Part shown: positions 7,031-23,800 of the stretch, piece by piece
How positions within the stretch are numbered: the stretch's first letter is position 1
Layout of the letters: each line of letters begins with the position of its first letter
DNA from: an uncultured Prevotellaceae bacterium
Lineage (GTDB): Bacteria; Bacteroidota; Bacteroidia; Bacteroidales; Bacteroidaceae
Reading direction: 5' to 3'
DNA: 59,559 nt
Assembly (NCBI GenBank): GCA_946407325.1
Contig: CAMJNN010000001.1
Location: forward strand, 1 to 59,559
Notes under the pieces: generated by a model
Databases searched by the model: none
Told to the model about the DNA's origin: nothing
Seen by the model: only the letters and a program-made list of their open reading frames with translations
Program-made: the position numbers and the translations under genes

Positions 7031-9100
7031 TTAATCAGCGTAAGTCAATTCATTCAATAACCACTGTGCATGGCCAATCCTCTCTACCACGAACAGCAGA
7101 TACCTGATATCCAGTGAAATGTTACGGCAGAATTCAGGGTCAAAGGCCAAGTCGCTCATGGTTCCTTCCCATACTCGGTCAAAGTTGATGCCTATCAGTT
7201 CACCGTTGGCATTGAGGACAGGACTTCCTGAGTTGCCTCCTGAGGTGTGGTTGGTAGCCAGGAAGCATACGGGCTGGTCGTCATGACCTCCTTCGGCATA
7301 GATGTCGCGCAAGGTCTGCGGAATGTTGTAGTCGAAGATATCGGGATTGTCCTTCTCGATGATGCCCTTGAGGGTGGAGATGGGAGCGTAGGAGATGGCA
7401 TCGGAGGGGTTATAGCCTGCTACCTGACCATAGGACACGCGTAGCGTGCGGTTGGCGTCAGGATAGAATGTCTTGTCGGGCTGGAACTCCATCTGTGCTT
7501 TCATGTATCGGCGATTAGCCAAACTAATTTCCTGTCCCAGACGGCTCACCACAGGCTGCAGATCCTTGCGGTACCACAGGTTGTAAGCATTATACATCTC
7601 GTAGGCTGGATCGGCCTCTATTTTCGGGAGATCCTCTTTGGTAAGACGCAACACCTTGGCCTTGTCAGTGAAGATGGAGCGTGCAAACACGTCGTTTCGC
7701 CATGCTTCCAGACTACCATATTGAGCCAGTTTCTGCGAGTGGTATGCCGGCTTGAACTCTGCGCTGAGCTGTTTGTCGAAAGCGCCCATCATAGCCACGA
7801 AAATCTCTTCGTCTATAGGCTGGTAGTAGTCCTTGTAAAAGTCATCGGCCACATCCTGTACAGGTTTTCCATCCTTCAGTGCCGAGTGGATTCTGCTGGC
7901 AAATGACAACAACTCTATGGTAGATACTGTTTCGTTATAATATTCCTGTGCGCGGAAGTAGGGGTTACGTCGCTCATAGAGTGAAGAAATCTGTTCCAGC
8001 AGTCCCTTGTATTCATTCCCTTCTGCCCACTTGCGGAATCTGTCTTCAAAATCCAACTTCGACTCCACCGTTTTTCTGCGAGCCAAACCTTTGGATTCTC
8101 CTTGCCATTTCTTCCAGGCATTAGATACGCCGGCATTCTTGGATGAATACTGGATGCGTACTGCCTGGTCCTGCAACATATACTTCTTCTGGATATCCAA
8201 ACGCAATGTACGCAGAGCTATCTTCTCAGGGTCAGACACCTCGCCAGTATAGCGCACCTCGTCGGAAGTGACATACTCCTTGGTAGTACCAGGAAAACCA
8301 TACACCATCGTGAAGTCACCCTCTTTCACACCTTTGCGGGAGATGGTGAAATAGTGCTTTGGCTTATAAGGCACATTGTCCTTGGCGTATTCGGCAGGTT
8401 CGTTGTTTTTGTCAGCATAGATGCGGAAGATAGAGAAATCTCCCGTATGCCTGGGCCACATCCAGTTGTCGGTATCGCCACCGAACTTACCGATGGAAGA
8501 GGGGGGAGCACCCACCAGTCGCACATCGGAATAGATCTTATAGACAAAGAGGAAGTACTGGTTGGCTTGGTAGAGACCCTCCACCGTTGAGCGGATACCC
8601 TTTCCCTGCTTATTGATAGGCTCGGTGATGATTCTGGAATTGGCCTGCACCAAAGAATCGCGCTGACCGTTGGTCATAGAAGGCACATAGCCCTTCAAGA
8701 CCTTGTCGGTTACATCCTCCATACGCTGCAAGAAGCTCACGGTAAGTCCTGGATTCGGTAGTTCCTCCTCAAAACTCATCGCCCAGAAGCCATCTTTCAG
8801 GTAGTCGTGCTCCACGGTGCTGTGCTCCTGAATCTGTCCATAACCACAGTGGTGGTTGGTAAAGAGCAGTCCGTCTGGAGAGACCACCTCACCTGTACAG
8901 CCACCGCCAAAACGCACTACGGCATCCTTCAGTGAAGCGTTATTCACACTATAGATATCCTCGGCCGTGAGTCGGAAACCCTTAGCTTGCATGTCATTTA
9001 TTCGATTAGAGATCAGAAGTGGCAGCCACATGCCCTCATCCGCCTTCACTGGCAACAGACCTGTGAGCAGTACTAGAAAGAGTAGAAATGATTTTTTCAT
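7031..9100 (-). CDS. S46-family dipeptidyl-peptidase, Asp/Glu-specific (DPP11-like)
   Basis: 689 residues with a signal peptide (MKKSFLLFLVLLTGLLPVKA). S46 enzymes are periplasmic serine exopeptidases that release dipeptides from oligopeptides. The catalytic triad is visible: His in FTNHHCGYG (83/84), Asp221 in RHTGDFSIFR, and Ser624 in GGNSGSPV. The residue 18 positions after the serine is Arg642 (FDRVWEG). In the family, Arg there marks DPP11 (acidic P1) while Gly marks DPP7 (hydrophobic P1), so acidic specificity is inferred. It ends a five-gene minus-strand run starting at pyrC, 20 bp after the metallophosphoesterase. Asaccharolytic relatives use such enzymes to feed on peptides. Confidence 0.93.
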   Translation of the reverse strand: MKKSFLLFLVLLTGLLPVKADEGMWLPLLISNRINDMQAKGFRLTAEDIYSVNNASLKDAVVRFGGGCTGEVVSPDGLLFTNHHCGYGQIQEHSTVEHDYLKDGFWAMSFEEELPNPGLTVSFLQRMEDVTDKVLKGYVPSMTNGQRDSLVQANSRIITEPINKQGKGIRSTVEGLYQANQYFLFVYKIYSDVRLVGAPPSSIGKFGGDTDNWMWPRHTGDFSIFRIYADKNNEPAEYAKDNVPYKPKHYFTISRKGVKEGDFTMVYGFPGTTKEYVTSDEVRYTGEVSDPEKIALRTLRLDIQKKYMLQDQAVRIQYSSKNAGVSNAWKKWQGESKGLARRKTVESKLDFEDRFRKWAEGNEYKGLLEQISSLYERRNPYFRAQEYYNETVSTIELLSFASRIHSALKDGKPVQDVADDFYKDYYQPIDEEIFVAMMGAFDKQLSAEFKPAYHSQKLAQYGSLEAWRNDVFARSIFTDKAKVLRLTKEDLPKIEADPAYEMYNAYNLWYRKDLQPVVSRLGQEISLANRRYMKAQMEFQPDKTFYPDANRTLRVSYGQVAGYNPSDAISYAPISTLKGIIEKDNPDIFDYNIPQTLRDIYAEGGHDDQPVCFLATNHTSGGNSGSPVLNANGELIGINFDRVWEGTMSDLAFDPEFCRNISLDIRYLLFVVERIGHAQWLLNELTYAD

Positions 9101-10294: not shown

Positions 10295-11182
10295 TTATAA
10301 GTTTGCTGCCAAGAACTTGCGCATGTTTTCAACAGGCAGTCCTCTGCGTTGTGAATAATCAATAAGTTGGTCTTCGCCAATCTTTCCCACACTGAAATAG
10401 CGAGCTTGCGGATGCGCCAACATCAGTCCGCTGACAGAAGCATGAGGATGCATCGCCCCGTTCTCCGTGAGGGTGATGCCGATGCTCCCAAGATGGATCA
10501 GTTCATCGATGATGAAATTAACCGACTGATCGGGTAGGGAGGGATAGCCCACTGCTGGTCGTATGCCTTGAAACTTCTCCAATAGCAGGTCGGTCATGCT
10601 GAGTTGTTCATCAGGCGCATAGCCCCACGCCTCTTTCCTGACATACAGGTGCAACTTCTCCACAGAAGCCTCCACCAAACGGTCGCACAGCGTTTGCACC
10701 AACAGCTTGCGATAAGCATCGTCCGTTTCTAACAAAGCCGAATCGTCGATGGTGGCCGCAAACACTCCTACTTTGTCGGGTATTCCCATTTCCACAGGTC
10801 GCACGAAGTCGCTCAGACAGAGATACGGCTCTCCTTCTCGAGTCATACGCTGCTGACGGAGCAATGGGAATAAAACGCCGTTAATCAGTAGGTTATCACC
10901 CGATGCATTTGCCTCAAACAGCTGAAAAGCACATTTGCAAGTCAGCTTGCCCTCCAACTCGCCCAACAATTTACGGGCATCGTTCATCAGCTTGACGGCT
11001 TCACGAGCCTTGGCTTGTTCCTCCTCAGAAAAACTATTTACCCAAGTGGTTTGGCAACCTATACAGTCGTGCACCTGGGCAATAGCGGCGAAGCGTGGAG
11101 CAAAACCCCACGCATGGAAGAAGTAGAGCCAGTTCACAAACTCTGCTACTTCACCAATGCTGTATATATTAACAATGCTCAC
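10295..11182 (-). CDS. Stand-alone MetH activation-domain protein (cobalamin-dependent methionine synthase reactivation domain)
   Basis: 295 residues. The sequence matches the C-terminal activation domain of B12-dependent methionine synthase: NWLYFFHAWGF near the start and RPAVGYPSLPDQS in the middle (family RPAxGYPxxPDH, an S-adenosylmethionine-binding loop). In MetH this domain binds AdoMet for reductive remethylation of oxidised cobalamin. The catalytic homocysteine, folate and B12-binding modules are absent, so it would have to act in trans with a separate MetH. I place the start at the GTG at 11182, which overlaps the TGA of the upstream gene as GTGA; a TTG at 11194 is also in frame. Confidence 0.82.
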   Translation of the reverse strand: MSIVNIYSIGEVAEFVNWLYFFHAWGFAPRFAAIAQVHDCIGCQTTWVNSFSEEEQAKAREAVKLMNDARKLLGELEGKLTCKCAFQLFEANASGDNLLINGVLFPLLRQQRMTREGEPYLCLSDFVRPVEMGIPDKVGVFAATIDDSALLETDDAYRKLLVQTLCDRLVEASVEKLHLYVRKEAWGYAPDEQLSMTDLLLEKFQGIRPAVGYPSLPDQSVNFIIDELIHLGSIGITLTENGAMHPHASVSGLMLAHPQARYFSVGKIGEDQLIDYSQRRGLPVENMRKFLAANL

Positions 11183-12024
11183 GCCAATTGGCAAACCGCT
11201 TTCATATAACCATATGACTCGGCAATGCCCAGGAACGGATTATCCATATCCTTCTCGTACTCCAGGCTGCACATGCCCTCGTAGCCCACTTTACGCATCA
11301 TGCGCACGAAAGCAGGGAAGTCAATCTTGCCACGTCCCATCTCGATGCACTTGCCCTCTTTCGAGTTGTCCGTCTCATCCTTGATGTGCATGTCAAACAC
11401 ACGCGTATGGTACTTCTCTAGGTCGGCCACAGGGTCGGCACCGTTGCGGAAATCATGACCAATATCCAAACACATACCGATGTTAGGATCGAGGTCCTTC
11501 ACCTTATCCCAAATCACCGTAGCATCCTGATACACGTCCAAGTCAGGTCCATGCAAGTGGATGGCATATTTTATTTCAGGATATTCCTTGATTTTCTTGT
11601 CCACGTAAGGCAACAGTTCGTAGGGGGGAACTGACAACATGACCTTAGCACCTACTCTGCGAGCATAGGCAAAGGCTTTGTCCACTTCCTCTTCGGTGTT
11701 CTGGTAGATAGGACCTACACCGTAGCCTGTTACGCCATATTCAGCGCACTTGGCGTGGAACGCCTTGATTTGTTCGTCAGTAGCATCCAGTGGTAAATGG
11801 AAATCCTTGATGCAAAGATAATGGATATCGCACTTCTGCAATGTCTGGAGAGCTGTGTCGATGTCGAAATTGTGGAAAGTCCAATCTGCGCAACTCAAAT
11901 GAAACTTGTTGTCGGCAGCAGTGGTCTTAGCCTCTTCCTCCTTTGCAGGAGCAGCGTTGCAACTGCTCATAGCTAAAGCAGCACCACCTACCAAACCAGT
12001 CATGATAAAAGATCTTCTTTTCAT
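11179..12024 (-). CDS. Secreted lipoprotein, sugar phosphate isomerase/epimerase-like TIM barrel
   Basis: 281 residues. The N-terminus MKRRSFIMTGLVGGAALAM carries a twin-arginine-like pair and a lipobox ending at Cys22 (AMSSC). The remainder is a xylose-isomerase-like TIM barrel; candidate metal ligands are Asp187/His190 (CLDIGHD), His213 (DMHIKDE) and Glu255 (SLEYEKD), while strand five carries HLHG instead of a clear glutamate. Exported members of this family occur beside glycoside-degrading genes in Bacteroidota and may act on keto-sugars; the substrate here is unknown. It lies 24 bp after pyrC and overlaps the MetH activation gene by 4 bp. Its neighbours give little hint of function. Confidence 0.85.
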   Translation of the reverse strand: MKRRSFIMTGLVGGAALAMSSCNAAPAKEEEAKTTAADNKFHLSCADWTFHNFDIDTALQTLQKCDIHYLCIKDFHLPLDATDEQIKAFHAKCAEYGVTGYGVGPIYQNTEEEVDKAFAYARRVGAKVMLSVPPYELLPYVDKKIKEYPEIKYAIHLHGPDLDVYQDATVIWDKVKDLDPNIGMCLDIGHDFRNGADPVADLEKYHTRVFDMHIKDETDNSKEGKCIEMGRGKIDFPAFVRMMRKVGYEGMCSLEYEKDMDNPFLGIAESYGYMKAVCQLA

Positions 12025-17675: not shown

Positions 17676-17754
17676 CAAATGTAGCCATTTTTGTTTTACT
17701 TACTCCATTATTCGGCTGTTTTTTCACTTATTTTAGAAAAAAATGGTATATTTG
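17676..17754. promoter_or_regulatory. Divergent promoters, glycosyltransferase (-) and TIM-barrel protein (+)
   Basis: Minus strand TACATTTG (complement of 17676-17683) lies 25 bp before the glycosyltransferase ATG. Plus strand TATATTTG (17747-17754) lies 35 bp before the ATG at 17789. Both match the -7 element; -33 elements are weak. Confidence 0.5.
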
Positions 17755-17788: not shown

Positions 17789-18781
17789 ATGAAAGATAAT
17801 TCTATTTCTAGAAGAAACTTCCTGCGTGGTGCTTCTGCTGTGGCTATGGCCAGTGTCTTGCCTGGATCGGTGATGGCTGCTGAGAAGGAGGCTGCTGTGG
17901 CCGATACAACTGCAAAGGCAGCTGCTCGCAAGGGCCCGAAGAGGGGTGTTTCGTTCTATAGCTATTCAGCCGAATTCGGCTTCGAGAAAACCTTGGAAGA
18001 TTGCTTCGAGGATGTGCATGACATGGGTGCTCATGGCATCGAGATCTTGGCCAATGCGCATATTGCCAACTATCCATACCCTACAGAGGAGTGGGTGAAC
18101 AATTGGTGGGCACTGTGCAAAAAGTACGAGATTGAGCCTGTAGAGTATGGCCATTGGTTGGATTGCAGGTTGTATCAGGACCGTTTGCTGGATGTGGATG
18201 AGGCTGTGGATTTCCTGAGTCGTGACTTGCATCTGGCTCATCGTCTGGGGTTCAAGTTCCTGCGTACCAAGATGACGGTGAAGGATGGTCAGTTGGCACC
18301 TATTGACAATTGGCAGGACATCATTCTGAAGGCGTTGCCGTTGGCAGAGCGCCTGGGACTGGTGATGTTGCCTGAAATACATACGCCATCGAGCTTGACG
18401 GAGGGCTTTATCAACGATTATGTGGACTTTATCAAGAAGACGGGTACCAAAAACTTTGGCTTGAACATCGACTTCAGTGTGTTCCGTACAACTCGTGGTC
18501 GTGAAACGCCAGGGCAGACTGCTTATTACAGCAAGCCTGAGGACATTATTCCTCTGCTGCCTTACATCTATTGCTGTCACGCTAAACTGTTCCATATGAG
18601 CGACGATTTCCATGAAACTGAGATCCCATACGAAGAGGTGCTGAAAATCATGATTGACCACAACTGGGACGGCTACCTGCTGAGTGAATATGAGGGTAGC
18701 GACAAGTACGATCAGGGATACGAAGTGGGTCAGACCTTGCGCAAGCAGCACATCATGATGAAGAGAATTTTGGGTGATTAA
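17789..18781 (+). CDS. TIM-barrel protein with Tat signal, probable C-glycoside deglycosidase alpha-like subunit
   Basis: 330 residues. The N-terminus has a classical twin-arginine signal (SRRNFLRG at 7-14, hydrophobic stretch to about residue 30). The remainder is a xylose-isomerase-like TIM barrel with the expected metal quartet: Glu196 (LPEIHTP), Asp228 (LNIDFS), His264 (CCHAK) and Glu300 (LLSEYEG). The next gene, 19 bp downstream, encodes a DUF6379 protein. A TIM-barrel/DUF6379 pair is the layout of C-glycoside deglycosidases, where the barrel carries Mn and the active site and cleaves the C-C bond of 3-oxo-C-glycosides. Export of the alpha subunit is not part of the standard description. 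The oxidoreductase needed to make the 3-oxo substrate is not in this window. Confidence 0.8.
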
Positions 18782-18800
18782 AAGCGTTGGAGGAAACATT

Positions 18801-19241
18801 ATGGAGAAACAAGTTATACAATCTGTAGGATTTAGGAATATCAGCGAAGGGGGCAAGGTAACTGGCTTCCAGGTGAAGATCCGTCTGCCTTATTACAGAG
18901 GCGTGTTCTTGAGTCAGGTAAAGGTGGGCTCTATCGTGGTGGATGGTGAGGAAATCACCAAAGACCATATTCTGTGGCGTCTGAATGGTGCCGACTATAC
19001 TTGGCAGGAGATGCTGAAGTCGGGTAACGTGCACTGGAATCCTCTGGAACTGGTGACGCTGATCGTGGATAAACCAGGTGGTTTGAAGCAGGGGTATCAC
19101 GACCTGAAATACAGCTATGCGTGCACCCACTCGTATATGCCACCAATCATGGAGGACTTGATGCAACCGGATAAGGAGGAGACTGTGTATCTGGTGGAAT
19201 TTGGTCATATCCACAACACCCGTCGACTGATTATTGTGTAG
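18801..19241 (+). CDS. DUF6379 protein, probable C-glycoside deglycosidase beta-like subunit
   Basis: 146 residues from the ATG at 18801 (an upstream TTG at 18774 overlaps the previous gene). The beta-sandwich-type sequence carries RLPYYRGVFLSQV, SIVVDGEEI and FGHIHNTRRLI, which I read as the DUF6379 family of small subunits that pair with a TIM-barrel alpha subunit in C-glycoside deglycosidases. It has no signal peptide, while its presumed partner has a twin-arginine signal. If the two form a complex, the beta subunit could be carried out of the cytoplasm with the folded alpha subunit, or the complex could be cytosolic. A repeat and terminator follow. Confidence 0.75.
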   Translation: MEKQVIQSVGFRNISEGGKVTGFQVKIRLPYYRGVFLSQVKVGSIVVDGEEITKDHILWRLNGADYTWQEMLKSGNVHWNPLELVTLIVDKPGGLKQGYHDLKYSYACTHSYMPPIMEDLMQPDKEETVYLVEFGHIHNTRRLIIV

Positions 19242-19337: not shown

Positions 19338-19370
19338 GAAGCTCCTCATTTAGTGGGGAGCTTCCTTTCT
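19338..19370 (+). terminator. Intrinsic terminator after the DUF6379 gene
   Basis: Stem GAAGCTCCTCA (19338-19348) / TGGGGAGCTTC (19354-19364), one G-U pair, 5-nt loop, followed by CTTTCT. It separates the TIM-barrel/DUF6379 pair from the GH30 gene. Confidence 0.65.
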
Positions 19371-19391: not shown

Positions 19392-20825
19392 ATGAATAAA
19401 AGGCTGATATTAATAGCGTTGTGCGTTGTGTGTTTTGGCGTATCTGCGCTGGCTCAACAGGTGGTAAGCTACACCACTGACGTTACACGTACATGGGACA
19501 TGACCTTGGGTCAAGCCACACTGGGAACCTCGAAAAGTGGGGTGCCTGAAATACAAATCAACCCTTCGGTGCGCTATCAGGAAATCGATGGATTCGGGGC
19601 TGCTATCACTGGTTCTACGGCTTACAACCTTTCGCTCATGCCTGCTGAGGCAAGACACCAGTTCCTGCAAGAGACCTTTGCTCCTGACAAGTTTGGTTTC
19701 AGCTATGTGAGGGTGAGCATAGGGTGCTCGGACTTCTCGCTGAGCGAATATACCTTGTGCGACGAGCCTGGCATTGAACATTTCGCATTGACGGTGGAGG
19801 AGACCAAGTATGTGATTCCTGCACTGAAGGAGATTTTGGCCATTAATCCTGCGCTGAAGATCATGGGCACGCCTTGGACGTGTCCGAAGTGGATGAAGGT
19901 AAAGGACCTCGATTCGCTTGAGCCTTTCGACTCGTGGACGAGCGGACAACTGAATCCTGCCTACTATGACGATTATGCGCAATATTTCGTGCTGTGGATA
20001 CAGGCGATGCAACAGGCTGGGGTGCCTATCTACTGTGTGACGCCTCAGAACGAGCCGTTGAATCGTGGTAATTCGGCTTCGCTGTTCATGGGTTGGAAAG
20101 AACAACAAGCCTTTGTGAAGCAGGCATTGGGCCCTGCTTTGCGCAAAGCTGCGTTGCCTGTAAAGATATATGCTTTCGATCATAACTACAACTATGACAA
20201 TATGGCTGACCAGCAGCAATATCCTTTGCATATCTACGAAGATGCGGAAGCTGCAAGGTTCTTTGCTGGGGCGGCATATCACAACTATGGGGGCCAACCT
20301 GCTGAATTGTTGCGCATACAGCGTGAGGCGCCTGATAAGGAGTTGGTGTTCAGCGAGGCGAGTATTGGTACGTGGAACAACGGCAGGGACTTGGAGAAGT
20401 CGCTCTTGAGGGATGTAGAACAATTGGGTCTGGCCACCGTAAATGGCTGGTGCAGAGGCTCTGTGGTGTGGAACCTGATGCTGGACAACGATCGTGGTCC
20501 GCATCGTGGTGAAGGGGCTTGTGCCACTTGTTATGGGGTGGTGGACATTGATAATACTGACTACACCACCATTACACGCAACTCGCATTTCTATGCGATG
20601 GCGCACATGAGTGTGGCTGCAAAGCCTGGGGCTTATCGTATTGCGACCAACGAGCATGCTGGTGAGGGACTGACTTATGCAGCTTTCATCAATCCTGACG
20701 GCTCCTACGGTTTGGTGGTGAGCAATCGTGGGGAGGCTCGACAGGTGAATGTAAAACTGAATGGGGACGCTGCTTTTGTGGCTGACTTACCAGAAAAAGC
20801 TGTGGTATCGTATAGGTGGAGATAA
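19392..20825 (+). CDS. GH30-family glycoside hydrolase (exported)
   Basis: 477 residues with a signal peptide cleaved near SALAQQ. The GH30 (beta/alpha)8 barrel signatures are present: IDGFGAAITGS near residue 65, acid/base Glu221 in TPQNEP and nucleophile Glu322 in VFSEASIGTW. A C-terminal beta domain follows. Family activities include glucosylceramidase, beta-1,6-glucanase and beta-xylosidase or xylanase; the subfamily cannot be fixed by eye, though a beta-1,6-glucanase or glucosidase type fits the length. It follows the TIM-barrel/DUF6379 pair on the same strand after a terminator-like hairpin, so it may be functionally linked without being strictly cotranscribed. Confidence 0.9.
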   Translation: MNKRLILIALCVVCFGVSALAQQVVSYTTDVTRTWDMTLGQATLGTSKSGVPEIQINPSVRYQEIDGFGAAITGSTAYNLSLMPAEARHQFLQETFAPDKFGFSYVRVSIGCSDFSLSEYTLCDEPGIEHFALTVEETKYVIPALKEILAINPALKIMGTPWTCPKWMKVKDLDSLEPFDSWTSGQLNPAYYDDYAQYFVLWIQAMQQAGVPIYCVTPQNEPLNRGNSASLFMGWKEQQAFVKQALGPALRKAALPVKIYAFDHNYNYDNMADQQQYPLHIYEDAEAARFFAGAAYHNYGGQPAELLRIQREAPDKELVFSEASIGTWNNGRDLEKSLLRDVEQLGLATVNGWCRGSVVWNLMLDNDRGPHRGEGACATCYGVVDIDNTDYTTITRNSHFYAMAHMSVAAKPGAYRIATNEHAGEGLTYAAFINPDGSYGLVVSNRGEARQVNVKLNGDAAFVADLPEKAVVSYRWR

Positions 20826-20835
20826 TATTTTTTTG

Positions 20836-20843
20836 TATCTTCG
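20836..20843 (+). promoter_or_regulatory. Possible mfd -7 promoter box with a very short leader
   Basis: TATCTTCG (one mismatch to TAnnTTTG) ends 9 bases before the mfd ATG at 20853, which would give an almost leaderless mRNA. No TTG at -33 is evident, so this is tentative. Confidence 0.3.
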
Positions 20844-20852
20844 CACCCTGAA

Positions 20853-23800
20853 ATGAAGATTGATGAACTGCAACAACTGTTGGTGAAGCATCCGCAGGTA
20901 GCGGCCATGAGCCAACTGATTGAACAAGGAAAAGTAAAACACATTTATTGCGGAGGTCTGAAGGCTTCGGCTTCTTCTGTGTATGCCTCTGCCTTAATAG
21001 GAAACACGCATTGTCCCTTTGTGTTTATTTTAGGAGACCTCGAAGAAGCCGGTTATTTTTACCATGATCTTACTCAAATATTGGGCGACGAACAGGTGCT
21101 GTTTTTCCCTTCGTCGTTCCGCAGGGCCATCAAATATGGTCAGAAGGATGCTGCCAACGAGATATTGCGCACTGAGGTGCTGAGCCGTTTACAGAAGAAT
21201 GTGGCCAATCTGTTTGTGGTGACCTATCCTGATGCGCTGGCCGAGAAGGTGATAGCGCGTAAGGAGCTGGATGAGAAGACGCTCAAGATCAGGGTGGGCG
21301 ACCAATTGGATATGAAGTTTGTGACCGACTTGCTGCAGCAATATGGTTTTCAATATACTGATTATGTCTATGAACCAGGACAGTATGCTCAGCGTGGCAG
21401 TATCATCGATGTGTTCTCGTTTTCTTCAGAATATCCTTACCGAATAGACTTCTTTGGCGATGAGGTGGACAGTATCCGTACCTTCGAGATAGAAAGTCAG
21501 CTGTCGAAAGAGAAGAAAGACAGTGTGGTGATTGTACCTGACCTCAGTGCGGGCTTGTCGCGCAAGGGGGATGGGGGTATGGTGTCGTTCCTTGACTTCC
21601 TACAACCTGAGACAATGATGGTGATGCGTGATTTGTTCTGGTTGCGTGAACGCATTCAGCAGGTGCATGATGAAGCCCTTTCTGAACAAGCCGTAAAGGC
21701 GCGAGAGGCGGAAGAGCAGGGGATGCTGGTGCTCGATGGGAAGATTATCGATGGCGAGGACTTTATGCGCAAGGTGTTGCAATACCGCAGGATGGAGATT
21801 GGCGTCAAGCCTACTGGTACGCCTGATGCTTCACTGATGTTTGATACGGATGTGCAACCTATCTTCCACAAGAATTTCGACTTGCTGAGCGAGCGTTTGC
21901 AGCAATATATGCAGGATGGCTATCGTTTGTTTATCTGCAGTGACAGTAAGAAGCAGACGGAGCGTATCAAGGCGATATTCGAAGATAGGGGTGACAACAT
22001 TGAATTTACTGCTGTTGAGAAGACGATTCATGAGGGGTTTGTTGACCATCAGCAACGCATTTGTGTGTTTACCGACCACCAGATATTCGACCGTTTCCAT
22101 AAGTATAATCTGAAGAGTGACAAGGCCCGTAGTGGTAAGATTACACAGAGTCTGAAGGAGCTGAACGAGTTTCAGATGGGTGACTATGTGGTGCATACCG
22201 ATCATGGTGTGGGGCGTTTTGCTGGGTTGGTGCGCATTCCTAATGGCAACACTACACAAGAAGTGATCAAGCTGGTGTATCAGAACGAGGATGTGGTGTT
22301 TGTGTCTATTCATTCGTTGCACAAGGTGTCGAAATACAAGGGCAAGGACGGTGAACCACCCCGACTGAATAAATTGGGCTCTGGGGCTTGGGAACGCATC
22401 AAGGACAGAACCAAGACCAAGATAAAAGACATTGCTCGCGATTTGATAAAATTGTATGCTGCCCGTAGGGATGAAAAGGGTTTCGCCTATAGTCCTGACA
22501 GTTTTATGCAGAAGGAGCTGGAGGCTTCTTTCCTTTACGAGGATACACCTGACCAGAGCAAGGCTACTGCTGATGTGAAGGCCGATATGGAGAGCGATCG
22601 TCCTATGGATCGCTTGGTGTGTGGGGATGTGGGCTTTGGTAAGACGGAGGTGGCTATCAGAGCGGCTTTCAAGGCGGTGAGCGACAACAAGCAGGTGGCT
22701 GTGTTGGTGCCTACTACCGTGTTGGCTTACCAACATTATCAGACATTCAAGGAACGTCTCAAGGATATGCCTTGCAGGGTGGAGTACCTCAGTAGGGCTC
22801 GTTCGGCGAAGGACACCAAGCAGATTATTAAGGACTTGGCAGAGAACAAGGTGAACATTCTGATTGGTACCCACAAGATTTTGGGTAAGGAGGTGAAGTT
22901 TAAGGACCTGGGCTTGCTGATTATCGATGAGGAGCAGAAGTTTGGTGTTAGCACGAAAGAGAAGTTGCGTCAACTGAAGGTGAATGTGGATACCCTCACC
23001 ATGTCGGCCACTCCGATACCCAGAACTTTGCAGTTCTCACTGATGGGGGCACGTGACCTGTCTGTTATTCAGACGCCTCCTCCTAACCGTTATCCTATAC
23101 AGACCGAGGTGCATACCTTCAACGAGGAACTGATAGCTGATGCCATCAATTTCGAGATGAGCCGCAACGGACAGGTCTTCTTTGTCAATAACCACATCTC
23201 TAACTTGGATATGCTGAAGGCTTTGATACTGAAACATATACCTGATTGTCGTGTAGCTATTGGACATGGACAGATGGATCCTGTGGCCTTGGAGGAGATT
23301 ATCCTGGGCTTTGTGAATTACGACTACGATGTGCTGCTTTCTACTACCATCGTGGAGAATGGTATCGATATTCCGAATGCAAACACCATCATCATTAATG
23401 ATGCACAGAACTTCGGATTGTCCGACCTGCACCAGATGCGAGGCAGGGTGGGGCGAAGCAACAAGAAGGCGTTCTGTTATTTGTTGGCTCCTCCGTTATC
23501 GACGCTTACACAGGAGGCACACCGTCGTCTGCAGGCTATCGAGAACTTTGCAGGTTTGGGCAGTGGTATTCATATTGCTATGCAGGATCTTGATATTCGT
23601 GGAGCAGGTAATATGCTGGGTGCCGAACAGAGTGGCTTTATTGCCGATGTGGGTTATGAAACCTATCAGAAGATTCTGGGTGAGGCCGTTCACGAACTCA
23701 AGATGGATGAGTTCAGCGAACTGTTTGCTGAAGAAAACTATAGGAACGAAGCTGACAAGGGTGAGCACTATGTGGATGAGTGCCAGATAGAGAGCGACCT

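Follow-up and report, generated by a model that had tools for sequence, protein, structure and literature searches.

Positions 17,789 to 19,241 of a 59,559-nt stretch of DNA from an uncultured, rumen-type Prevotellaceae bacterium (contig CAMJNN010000001.1, hereafter the window) hold two adjacent forward-strand genes for the predicted alpha and beta subunits of a C-glycoside deglycosidase (CGD). The alpha gene (17789..18781, 330 aa) specifies a TIM barrel that starts with a signal of the twin-arginine translocation (Tat) type, and the beta gene (18801..19241, 146 aa) specifies a partner without a signal peptide. We consider it likely that the pair is a 3-oxo-C-glycoside lyase of the EuCGD/DfgAB type at the cell envelope, with beta hitchhiking on alpha and a Tat-exported oxidoreductase supplying the substrate; judged from the sequence, the site of action is probably the periplasm. 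A first-pass annotation of the window had suggested such an envelope-located version, and its gene coordinates, including the 19-base gap between alpha and beta, were reproduced here. The enzyme chemistry is known and would be that of EuCGD; what is probably new is the place of action, an export that a specialist would not expect. C-glycosyl flavones, in which a carbon-carbon bond joins sugar and flavonoid, are among the most stable plant glycosides. The known enzymes that open C-glycosides come from Firmicutes and Actinobacteria, and the cited literature passages do not mention their export. If the proposal is correct, Bacteroidales would strip the sugar without importing the aglycone, which would stay outside the cytosol, and C-glycoside lyases would be joined with periplasmic 3-keto-glycoside metabolism. 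The pair would also offer an uncomplicated case of Tat hitchhiking, with two genes and no organic cofactor known.

By every feature open to sequence comparison, the pair belongs to the CGD family. In Pfam, alpha matched PF01261 AP_endonuc_2 (1.2e-15) and beta matched PF19906, named for the beta subunit of C-glycoside deglycosidases, at 4e-36 and 123.7 bits against a cut-off of 27.6; some solved PF19906 relatives still carry the name DUF6379, and beta matched no NCBIfam model at E 0.1. The best PDB matches were DfgA (7bvs_A) for residues 47 to 330 of alpha (1.1e-135, 455 bits) and DfgB (7bvs_B) for all 146 residues of beta (1.2e-54, 188 bits). Since the two subunits of one solved complex were hit at 1e-135 and 1e-54, the match is not due to chance, and the span of the DfgA match places the start of homology at the end of the alpha leader and linker. 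The earlier call of a barrel with a DUF6379-type partner from the CGD family is therefore confirmed, the DUF6379 profile check included, and can be narrowed down to the EuCGD (DfgAB) branch.

Both subunits of EuCGD (DfgA-DfgB, Eubacterium cellulosolvens, PDB 7bvs/7dre/7exb) match the window pair at full length, with the same metal and catalytic residues and with two docking-model specificity residues kept. In contrast, the solved DfgA chain of 290 residues begins at the barrel, whereas 46 residues of leader and linker precede it in the window alpha, and the window has no oxidoreductase. PuCGD/PuCGE (DgpC-DgpB, strain PUE, with DgpA) shares the two-subunit lyase chemistry, and its catalytic His143 and beta Tyr39 align with H198 and Y32 of the window pair. 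It is, however, a distant sequence relative (131 and 58 bits) and is described as C8-selective, with leaderless solved chains, a lid domain on alpha and dgpA in the same operon.

The metal set of the window alpha comprises E196, D228, H264, K266 and E300, with H198 as the base and E302 in addition; all seven residues were unchanged throughout an alignment of 21 sequences and in six more alphas. The first-pass annotation had placed E196, D228, H264 and E300 correctly but had overlooked K266, which belongs to the set too. In AgCGD2 alpha the metal ligands are Glu147, Asp179, His269, Lys271, and Glu305, with base His149 and helper Glu307 (PMC8563793); PuCGD His143, the equivalent of His149, aligns with H198, and the other residues were mapped by common motif order. 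Beta Y32 aligns with PuCGD beta Tyr39, which is critical for C-C cleavage (PMC10628242), and the aligned Tyr was found in 8/8 further betas. The CGD active site sits between the two subunits (PMC8563793), and PuCGD alpha alone is inactive on 3-keto-C-glucosides, so that C-C cleavage requires beta (PMC10628242, PMC13273386). In docking models, EuCGD Leu128 (alpha) and Pro115 (beta) clash with the C8-glycoside orientin (PMC8563793). These residues align with L169 and P114 of the window pair, from which we guess a preference for C6; the likely substrates would be 3-oxo forms of C6-glucosyl flavones from forage.

The exported complex could instead act mainly on 3-keto-O-glycosides, or hydrate 2-hydroxy-3-keto-glucal, and so assist a general 3-keto-glycoside pathway in the Bacteroidales periplasm, with C-glycosides being at most secondary substrates. 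PuCGD cleaves the O-glucoside 3-keto-phlorizin faster than 3-keto-nothofagin (1.25 versus 0.64 U/mg, PMC13273386), PF06439 (3-keto-disaccharide hydrolase) occurs in 8/8 relatives' genomes given, of 13, and a lipoprotein reading like a PF06439 protein lies two genes from beta in locus L159 (loci, genomes and protein rows carry our own L, G and P numbers). Such a role nevertheless appears unlikely, as beta and its Tyr, both important above all for C-C cleavage, have been kept, and the closest characterised pair, EuCGD, was studied on C-glycosides (PMC8563793). The conserved beta Tyr also weakens the alternative of a different keto-glycoside that had been raised in the first-pass annotation.

The putative Tat signal peptide of alpha (17789..17878, residues 1 to 30) contains SRRNFLRG and an Ala-rich hydrophobic (h-) region, lacks a lipobox, and is probably cleaved after VMA-30 or A31. 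Its SRRNFLR fits the S/T-R-R-x-F-L-K pattern, with an h-region and an AxA-type cleavage site behind it, and Pfam PF10518 TAT_signal matched residues 6 to 25 just above its cut-off (23.1 versus 22.7 bits). Residues 31 to 47 (17879..17929) form a linker that is variable and gapped in the 21-sequence alignment. Windowed hydropathy of residues 1 to 60 failed to tell signal-bearing alphas from leaderless ones (1.67 for the leaderless alpha of L149, 1.71 for that of the window) and was not used. Elsewhere in the window, a second xylose-isomerase-like barrel (11179-12024, minus strand; PF01261) carries a two-arginine (RR) leader with a lipobox (MKRRSFIMTGLVGGAALAMSSC); this barrel is also present in L002, L003, L004, L006, L008, and L012.

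Conservation of the leader was examined in a locus scan with one genome per species, which returned 217 pattern matches and 182 relatives. The best 80 loci were used, 13 of them Bacteroidota (L001-L012 and L015) and 67 Clostridia-type, as labelled in their records; a ruminant stomach is named as the source for seven of L001-L012. All 13 Bacteroidota alphas carried an RRxFL leader and none of the 67 Clostridia-type alphas did. Across 15 alphas (the window, the 13 loci and L126) the RR pair was encoded by six codon pairs while the linker varied, which points to selection on the amino acids. The conserved signal lends independent support to the export idea of the earlier annotation. Among the best 120 of 856 protein relatives of the window alpha, 21 had RR leaders, 97 had none, and two were cut or unclear. 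A TAnnTTTG box (TATATTTG, 17747..17754, plus strand), which we take to be the Bacteroidota-type -7 promoter element, lies 42 bases upstream of the alpha ATG. At a distance of 35 to 47 bases 5' of the alpha ATG, the same box was found in the window and in all of L001-L012 except L005 (11 of 12), against a base rate of 0.057 per 120 bases of window; it was not present ahead of the L015 alpha either. Conservation, codon variation and promoter position together led us to reject a one-off misannotated start.

The same observations bear on a cytosolic complex, in which the leader would be a relic, or translation would begin at an internal start, and no role would fall to the RR motif. Solved close relatives are indeed leaderless and the Tat profile scores are borderline. 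A cytosolic location is nonetheless doubtful, given that RRxFL persists in 13/13 loci despite differing codons and a drifting linker, that the promoter box sits just upstream of the full-length start, and that leaders arise independently in a second clade described below.

As the first-pass annotation had stated, beta has no signal of its own, in the window or in any of the 12 complete Bacteroidota betas (L008 breaks off inside beta and was not counted). These betas begin with MEKxVIQSVGFRN or a near variant, 16 to 19 bases after alpha (17 in L126), and those of L126, L147, L148, L158 (both) and L159 are also leaderless. That partners without a signal can hitchhike through Tat is established (PMC4273604), hetero-oligomeric Tat substrates cross after assembly (PMC13323110), and EuCGD is an alpha4beta4 octamer in solution (PMC8563793). 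The missing signal on beta would also suit an arrangement in which alpha alone is exported, beta stays cytosolic, and alpha serves outside as a weak 3-keto-O-glycoside eliminase; isolated PuCGD alpha retains about 1.4% activity on an O-glycoside (PMC10628242). The spacing of 16 to 19 bases in 12/12 complete loci, the placement of the active site between the subunits (PMC8563793) and the passage of hetero-oligomeric Tat substrates in assembled form (PMC13323110) make this improbable. Export of unfolded alpha through Sec, with beta taking an unknown route or none, is very improbable, for although the Pfam and NCBIfam Tat scores lie near their cut-offs and some relatives have arginine-glutamate (RE) or arginine-lysine (RK) leaders, the window leader matches the S-R-R-x-F-L-K consensus with an Ala-rich core and a two-subunit metal enzyme would be poorly suited to Sec.

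The mechanism that we infer for the envelope lyase, covering export, hitchhiking, substrate, and electron partner, would begin with alpha and beta folding and assembling in the cytosol. Guided by the Tat signal of alpha, the folded complex would cross the inner membrane, with the signal-less beta riding along. A Tat-exported Gfo/Idh/MocA oxidoreductase with bound nicotinamide adenine dinucleotide (NAD), encoded elsewhere in the genome, would make the 3-oxo-C-glycoside. The periplasmic metal site between alpha and beta, with the metal on E196/D228/H264/K266/E300, would then take the C2 proton off the 3-oxo-C-glucoside, H198 acting as the base, E302 holding a water, and beta Y32 steadying the aglycone oxyanion. 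Elimination of the aglycone would leave 2-hydroxy-3-keto-glucal, and 3-oxo-glucose derived from it could re-oxidise the bound NADH. D3DgpA co-purifies with nearly one NAD(H) and shows ping-pong behaviour with 3-oxo-glucose (PMC11239390); with NAD(H) bound in this manner, such an enzyme could run without free NAD.

The partner oxidoreductase had been described as missing locally, and a search with 12 query proteins indeed found no Gfo/Idh/MocA open reading frame (ORF) in the 59.5-kb window. The non-linkage is no strong objection, because dgpA of Catenibacillus is likewise unlinked from dgpBC (PMC11170127). The relatives of the window support the envelope reading through tatC, present in 13/13 of their genomes, and through Tat-leader oxidoreductases encoded next to alpha in L015 and L158. 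The L015 example is a Gfo/Idh/MocA protein of 500 aa with a Tat leader (PF01408, 5.5e-15), encoded divergently to alpha about 1 kb away; it is distantly matched by glucuronide-3-dehydrogenase 8tdi, whose entry code neighbours 8tdf/8tdh. L158 (genome G1105) encodes on a single strand two betas, an alpha with an NRKQFI leader and a Gfo/Idh/MocA-like protein of 525 aa, which has the leader SRRNFL and is 54.5% identical to the L015 protein; the locus (L158:1-4303) is a 4.3-kb contig for which a binning error is possible. Its two betas may serve different aglycones. G001, the genome of the closest relative, with an alpha 98% identical to that of the window, has 12 Gfo/Idh/MocA matches, six of them with an RRxF leader. 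One Tat-leader protein (G001 L119:4677-6236) matches the dehydrogenases 8tdf and 8tdh at 2e-91 and 3e-89. This gene and a second Tat-leader Gfo/Idh/MocA gene (L119:7599-9080) enclose one for a lipoprotein-like barrel of xylose-isomerase type that has an RR leader, so that L119:4677-9080 is a candidate cluster for 3-keto sugars at the envelope.

A Gfo/Idh/MocA ORF lies within about 3 kb in 28 of the 67 Clostridia-type loci; counting just the 48 loci with full flanks, the figure is 25. These 67 loci hold 60 such ORFs, none of which carries an RR leader; RR motifs in seven of them were rejected as leaders, since six lie in the Rossmann start and the seventh in a start that is extended. An additional, more distantly related CGD beta was seen within the fetched stretch of L026, L052, L058, L059, L066, L071, and L078, of which L052 and L071 also hold a second alpha; these extra subunits suggest neighbouring CGDs of differing specificity.

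Several points weigh against an exported complex in the window. Its Tat profile scores are borderline, 0.4 bit above the Pfam cut-off and 1.3 bits below that of NCBIfam (TAT_signal_seq, 15.4 versus 16.7 bits); PF10518 was precomputed for four of the 21 RR rows named above, and Pfam gave no PF10518 hit for the RR-bearing alphas of L015 and L147. The tatC and Tat-leader oxidoreductase genes come from relatives' genomes, and no Gfo/Idh/MocA oxidoreductase was found in the window or in the covered flanks of L001-L012 (0/12). An alpha4beta4 complex of the mature window proteins would have a mass of 206 kDa, large for Tat, so that export of a smaller unit such as the 52-kDa alpha-beta is more likely. 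In relatives from the second clade, the leader is RK or RE in place of RR. Finally, the CGD pairs of G583 and G423, from a far subfamily, are leaderless on both subunits, which indicates that CGDs of the phylum are not always exported. A search of open-licence literature, covering titles and abstracts together with passages of PMC8563793, PMC10628242, PMC11170127, and PMC11673046, found no signal peptide, Tat or periplasmic location for CGDs, a weak negative.

Counting alphas with a visible start in Bacteroidota-grouped genomes, 18 have a leader (RR, RK or RE; L001-L012, L015, L126, L147, L148, L158, and L159) and two have none (G583 and G423). Two alphas were left out of this count, the second alpha-like ORF of G423, whose start is unclear, and that of G320 (L128), whose start lies outside the stretch. 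In G719, a beta-like stretch occurs alone, inside a 516-aa protein. PF19906 is rare in the phylum: with the centre genome included, it was found in 2/301 for the family of G001, 8/99 for its genus and 4/395 for its phylum, and in 2/117 for the family of G013 and 3/393 for its order.

Leaders of another kind mark a deep clade of CGD alphas (among P0242-P0359, with L158 and L159), whose conserved [STN]RKxF motif is one arginine short of the Tat motif. Among the best 120 of 792 relatives of the L147 alpha, 74 had [STN]RK leaders, five RR and three RE, 34 had none, and four were cut or unclear; these are script calls supplemented by manual reading of unplaced rows, and some rows scored as leaderless are probably cut. 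RE leaders, some with a lipobox, were seen in those three rows and in L148. Where a source is named, RK rows come from, among others, metagenome-assembled genomes of Bacteroidales, Woeseiaceae, and Steroidobacteraceae, but one Steroidobacteraceae row (P0351) is leaderless. In L159 (G1141, 7350-8480, minus strand), the alpha gene runs over two frames, by frameshift or assembly error, and is followed by beta and, further on, by the PF06439-like lipoprotein. Compared with Pfam TAT_signal, three of six RK rows scored 13 to 17 bits and three gave nothing, all under the cut-off of 22.7. In E. coli, conservative changes to lysine are poorly tolerated in the Tat motif, yet a more hydrophobic h-region can compensate for twin-lysine (PMC5539426); the RK clade is thus not a settled Tat family. 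A literature search with a single set of terms found no paper on arginine-lysine Tat motifs. With the RK leaders of this clade, nature offers a way to test the strictness of the twin-arginine rule.

In a tree of 96 rows, which includes two very long outgroup rows and excludes L158 and L159, the RR clade of the window (17 rows, 100/100) nests among Clostridia-type rows that lack a leader (support of 98/88 with P0015 and of 100/97 with 24 rows) and lies well apart from the RK rows. This nesting suggests that the window leader was gained, or regained, after a transfer. The leader label changes at least nine times on the tree; labels were fixed in the tree-building script, and some rows labelled leaderless within the RK clade (P0298, P0306) look like truncated gene calls. 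A single origin of all leaders was rejected, as grouping the 52 signal-bearing rows costs 384 log-likelihood units (approximately unbiased test, p-AU 3.6e-5) in a comparison chosen after the tree was seen. We put forward, with the case for and against evenly balanced in our judgement, that Tat export of C-glycoside lyases with a riding beta arose at least twice in diderms. One set of RR leaders would have followed transfer of leaderless Clostridia-type enzymes into Bacteroidales, and a second origin would lie in the deeper Bacteroidota/Gammaproteobacteria clade, with mostly [STN]RKxF(L/I/M) leaders. If so, arginine-lysine Tat signals would exist as a natural family in the second clade, and C-glycoside breakdown would sit inside an envelope 3-keto-glycoside pathway.

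A related setting is the periplasmic 3-keto-glycoside cluster BT2156-BT2160 of B. thetaiotaomicron, which resembles the relatives of the window in that these hold Tat-leader Gfo/Idh/MocA proteins, PF06439 proteins and exported AP_endonuc_2 barrels. To our knowledge, the cluster has no CGDB subunit. It differs further in being stated for disaccharides and glucosinolates (PMC11300592, PMC11501099); its BT2158 is described as a periplasmic glycoside 3-dehydrogenase (PMC11300592). Flavin adenine dinucleotide (FAD) glycoside 3-oxidoreductases of Rhizobium, Agrobacterium, Stenotrophomonas, and Sphingobacterium likewise carry out deglycosylation by oxidation and then elimination in diderms, as proposed here, and are encoded beside a Tat-annotated protein (PMC4650693, PMC10628242). 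These are, however, flavin enzymes that act on O-glycosides in the cited passages, where the protein annotated as Tat is a small partner to the oxidase, read as a chaperone, and not a lyase subunit. PaoABC and hydrogenase-2 HybOC of E. coli also combine one subunit that has a Tat signal with a partner that has none (PMC4273604), but they are redox enzymes with cofactors, whereas the window pair would be an Mn-type lyase for which no organic cofactor is known.

Downstream of beta, a tentative terminator hairpin (19339..19365, plus strand) with an 8-bp perfect stem (GAAGCTCC/GGAGCTTC), an 11-base loop and a weak T tail lies between beta and the next gene. It was spotted by eye and is unconfirmed; the terminator scan, with a loop limit of 8 bases versus the 11 present, did not call it. 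A 32-base repeat-like stretch beside the hairpin occurs once in the window. The next gene (19392..20825, plus strand) encodes a GH30 protein, as annotated in the first pass and borne out by Pfam and NCBIfam profile matches (NCBIfam endo-1,6-beta-glucanase, 715 bits, cut-off 700). GH30 as a constant partner was rejected, although L003 makes this less firm: among the nine of L001-L012 with at least 5 kb downstream, it follows beta in L001, L004, and L005 and does not in L002, L007, and L009-L012, while in L003 it also lies 3' of beta and the contig stops within it. In the window, a gene that appears Mfd-like from its sequence lies directly 3' of GH30 (20825-20853); in L001, L004, and L005, a gene of 342 to 374 aa, glycerate-kinase-like by its start, separates the two.

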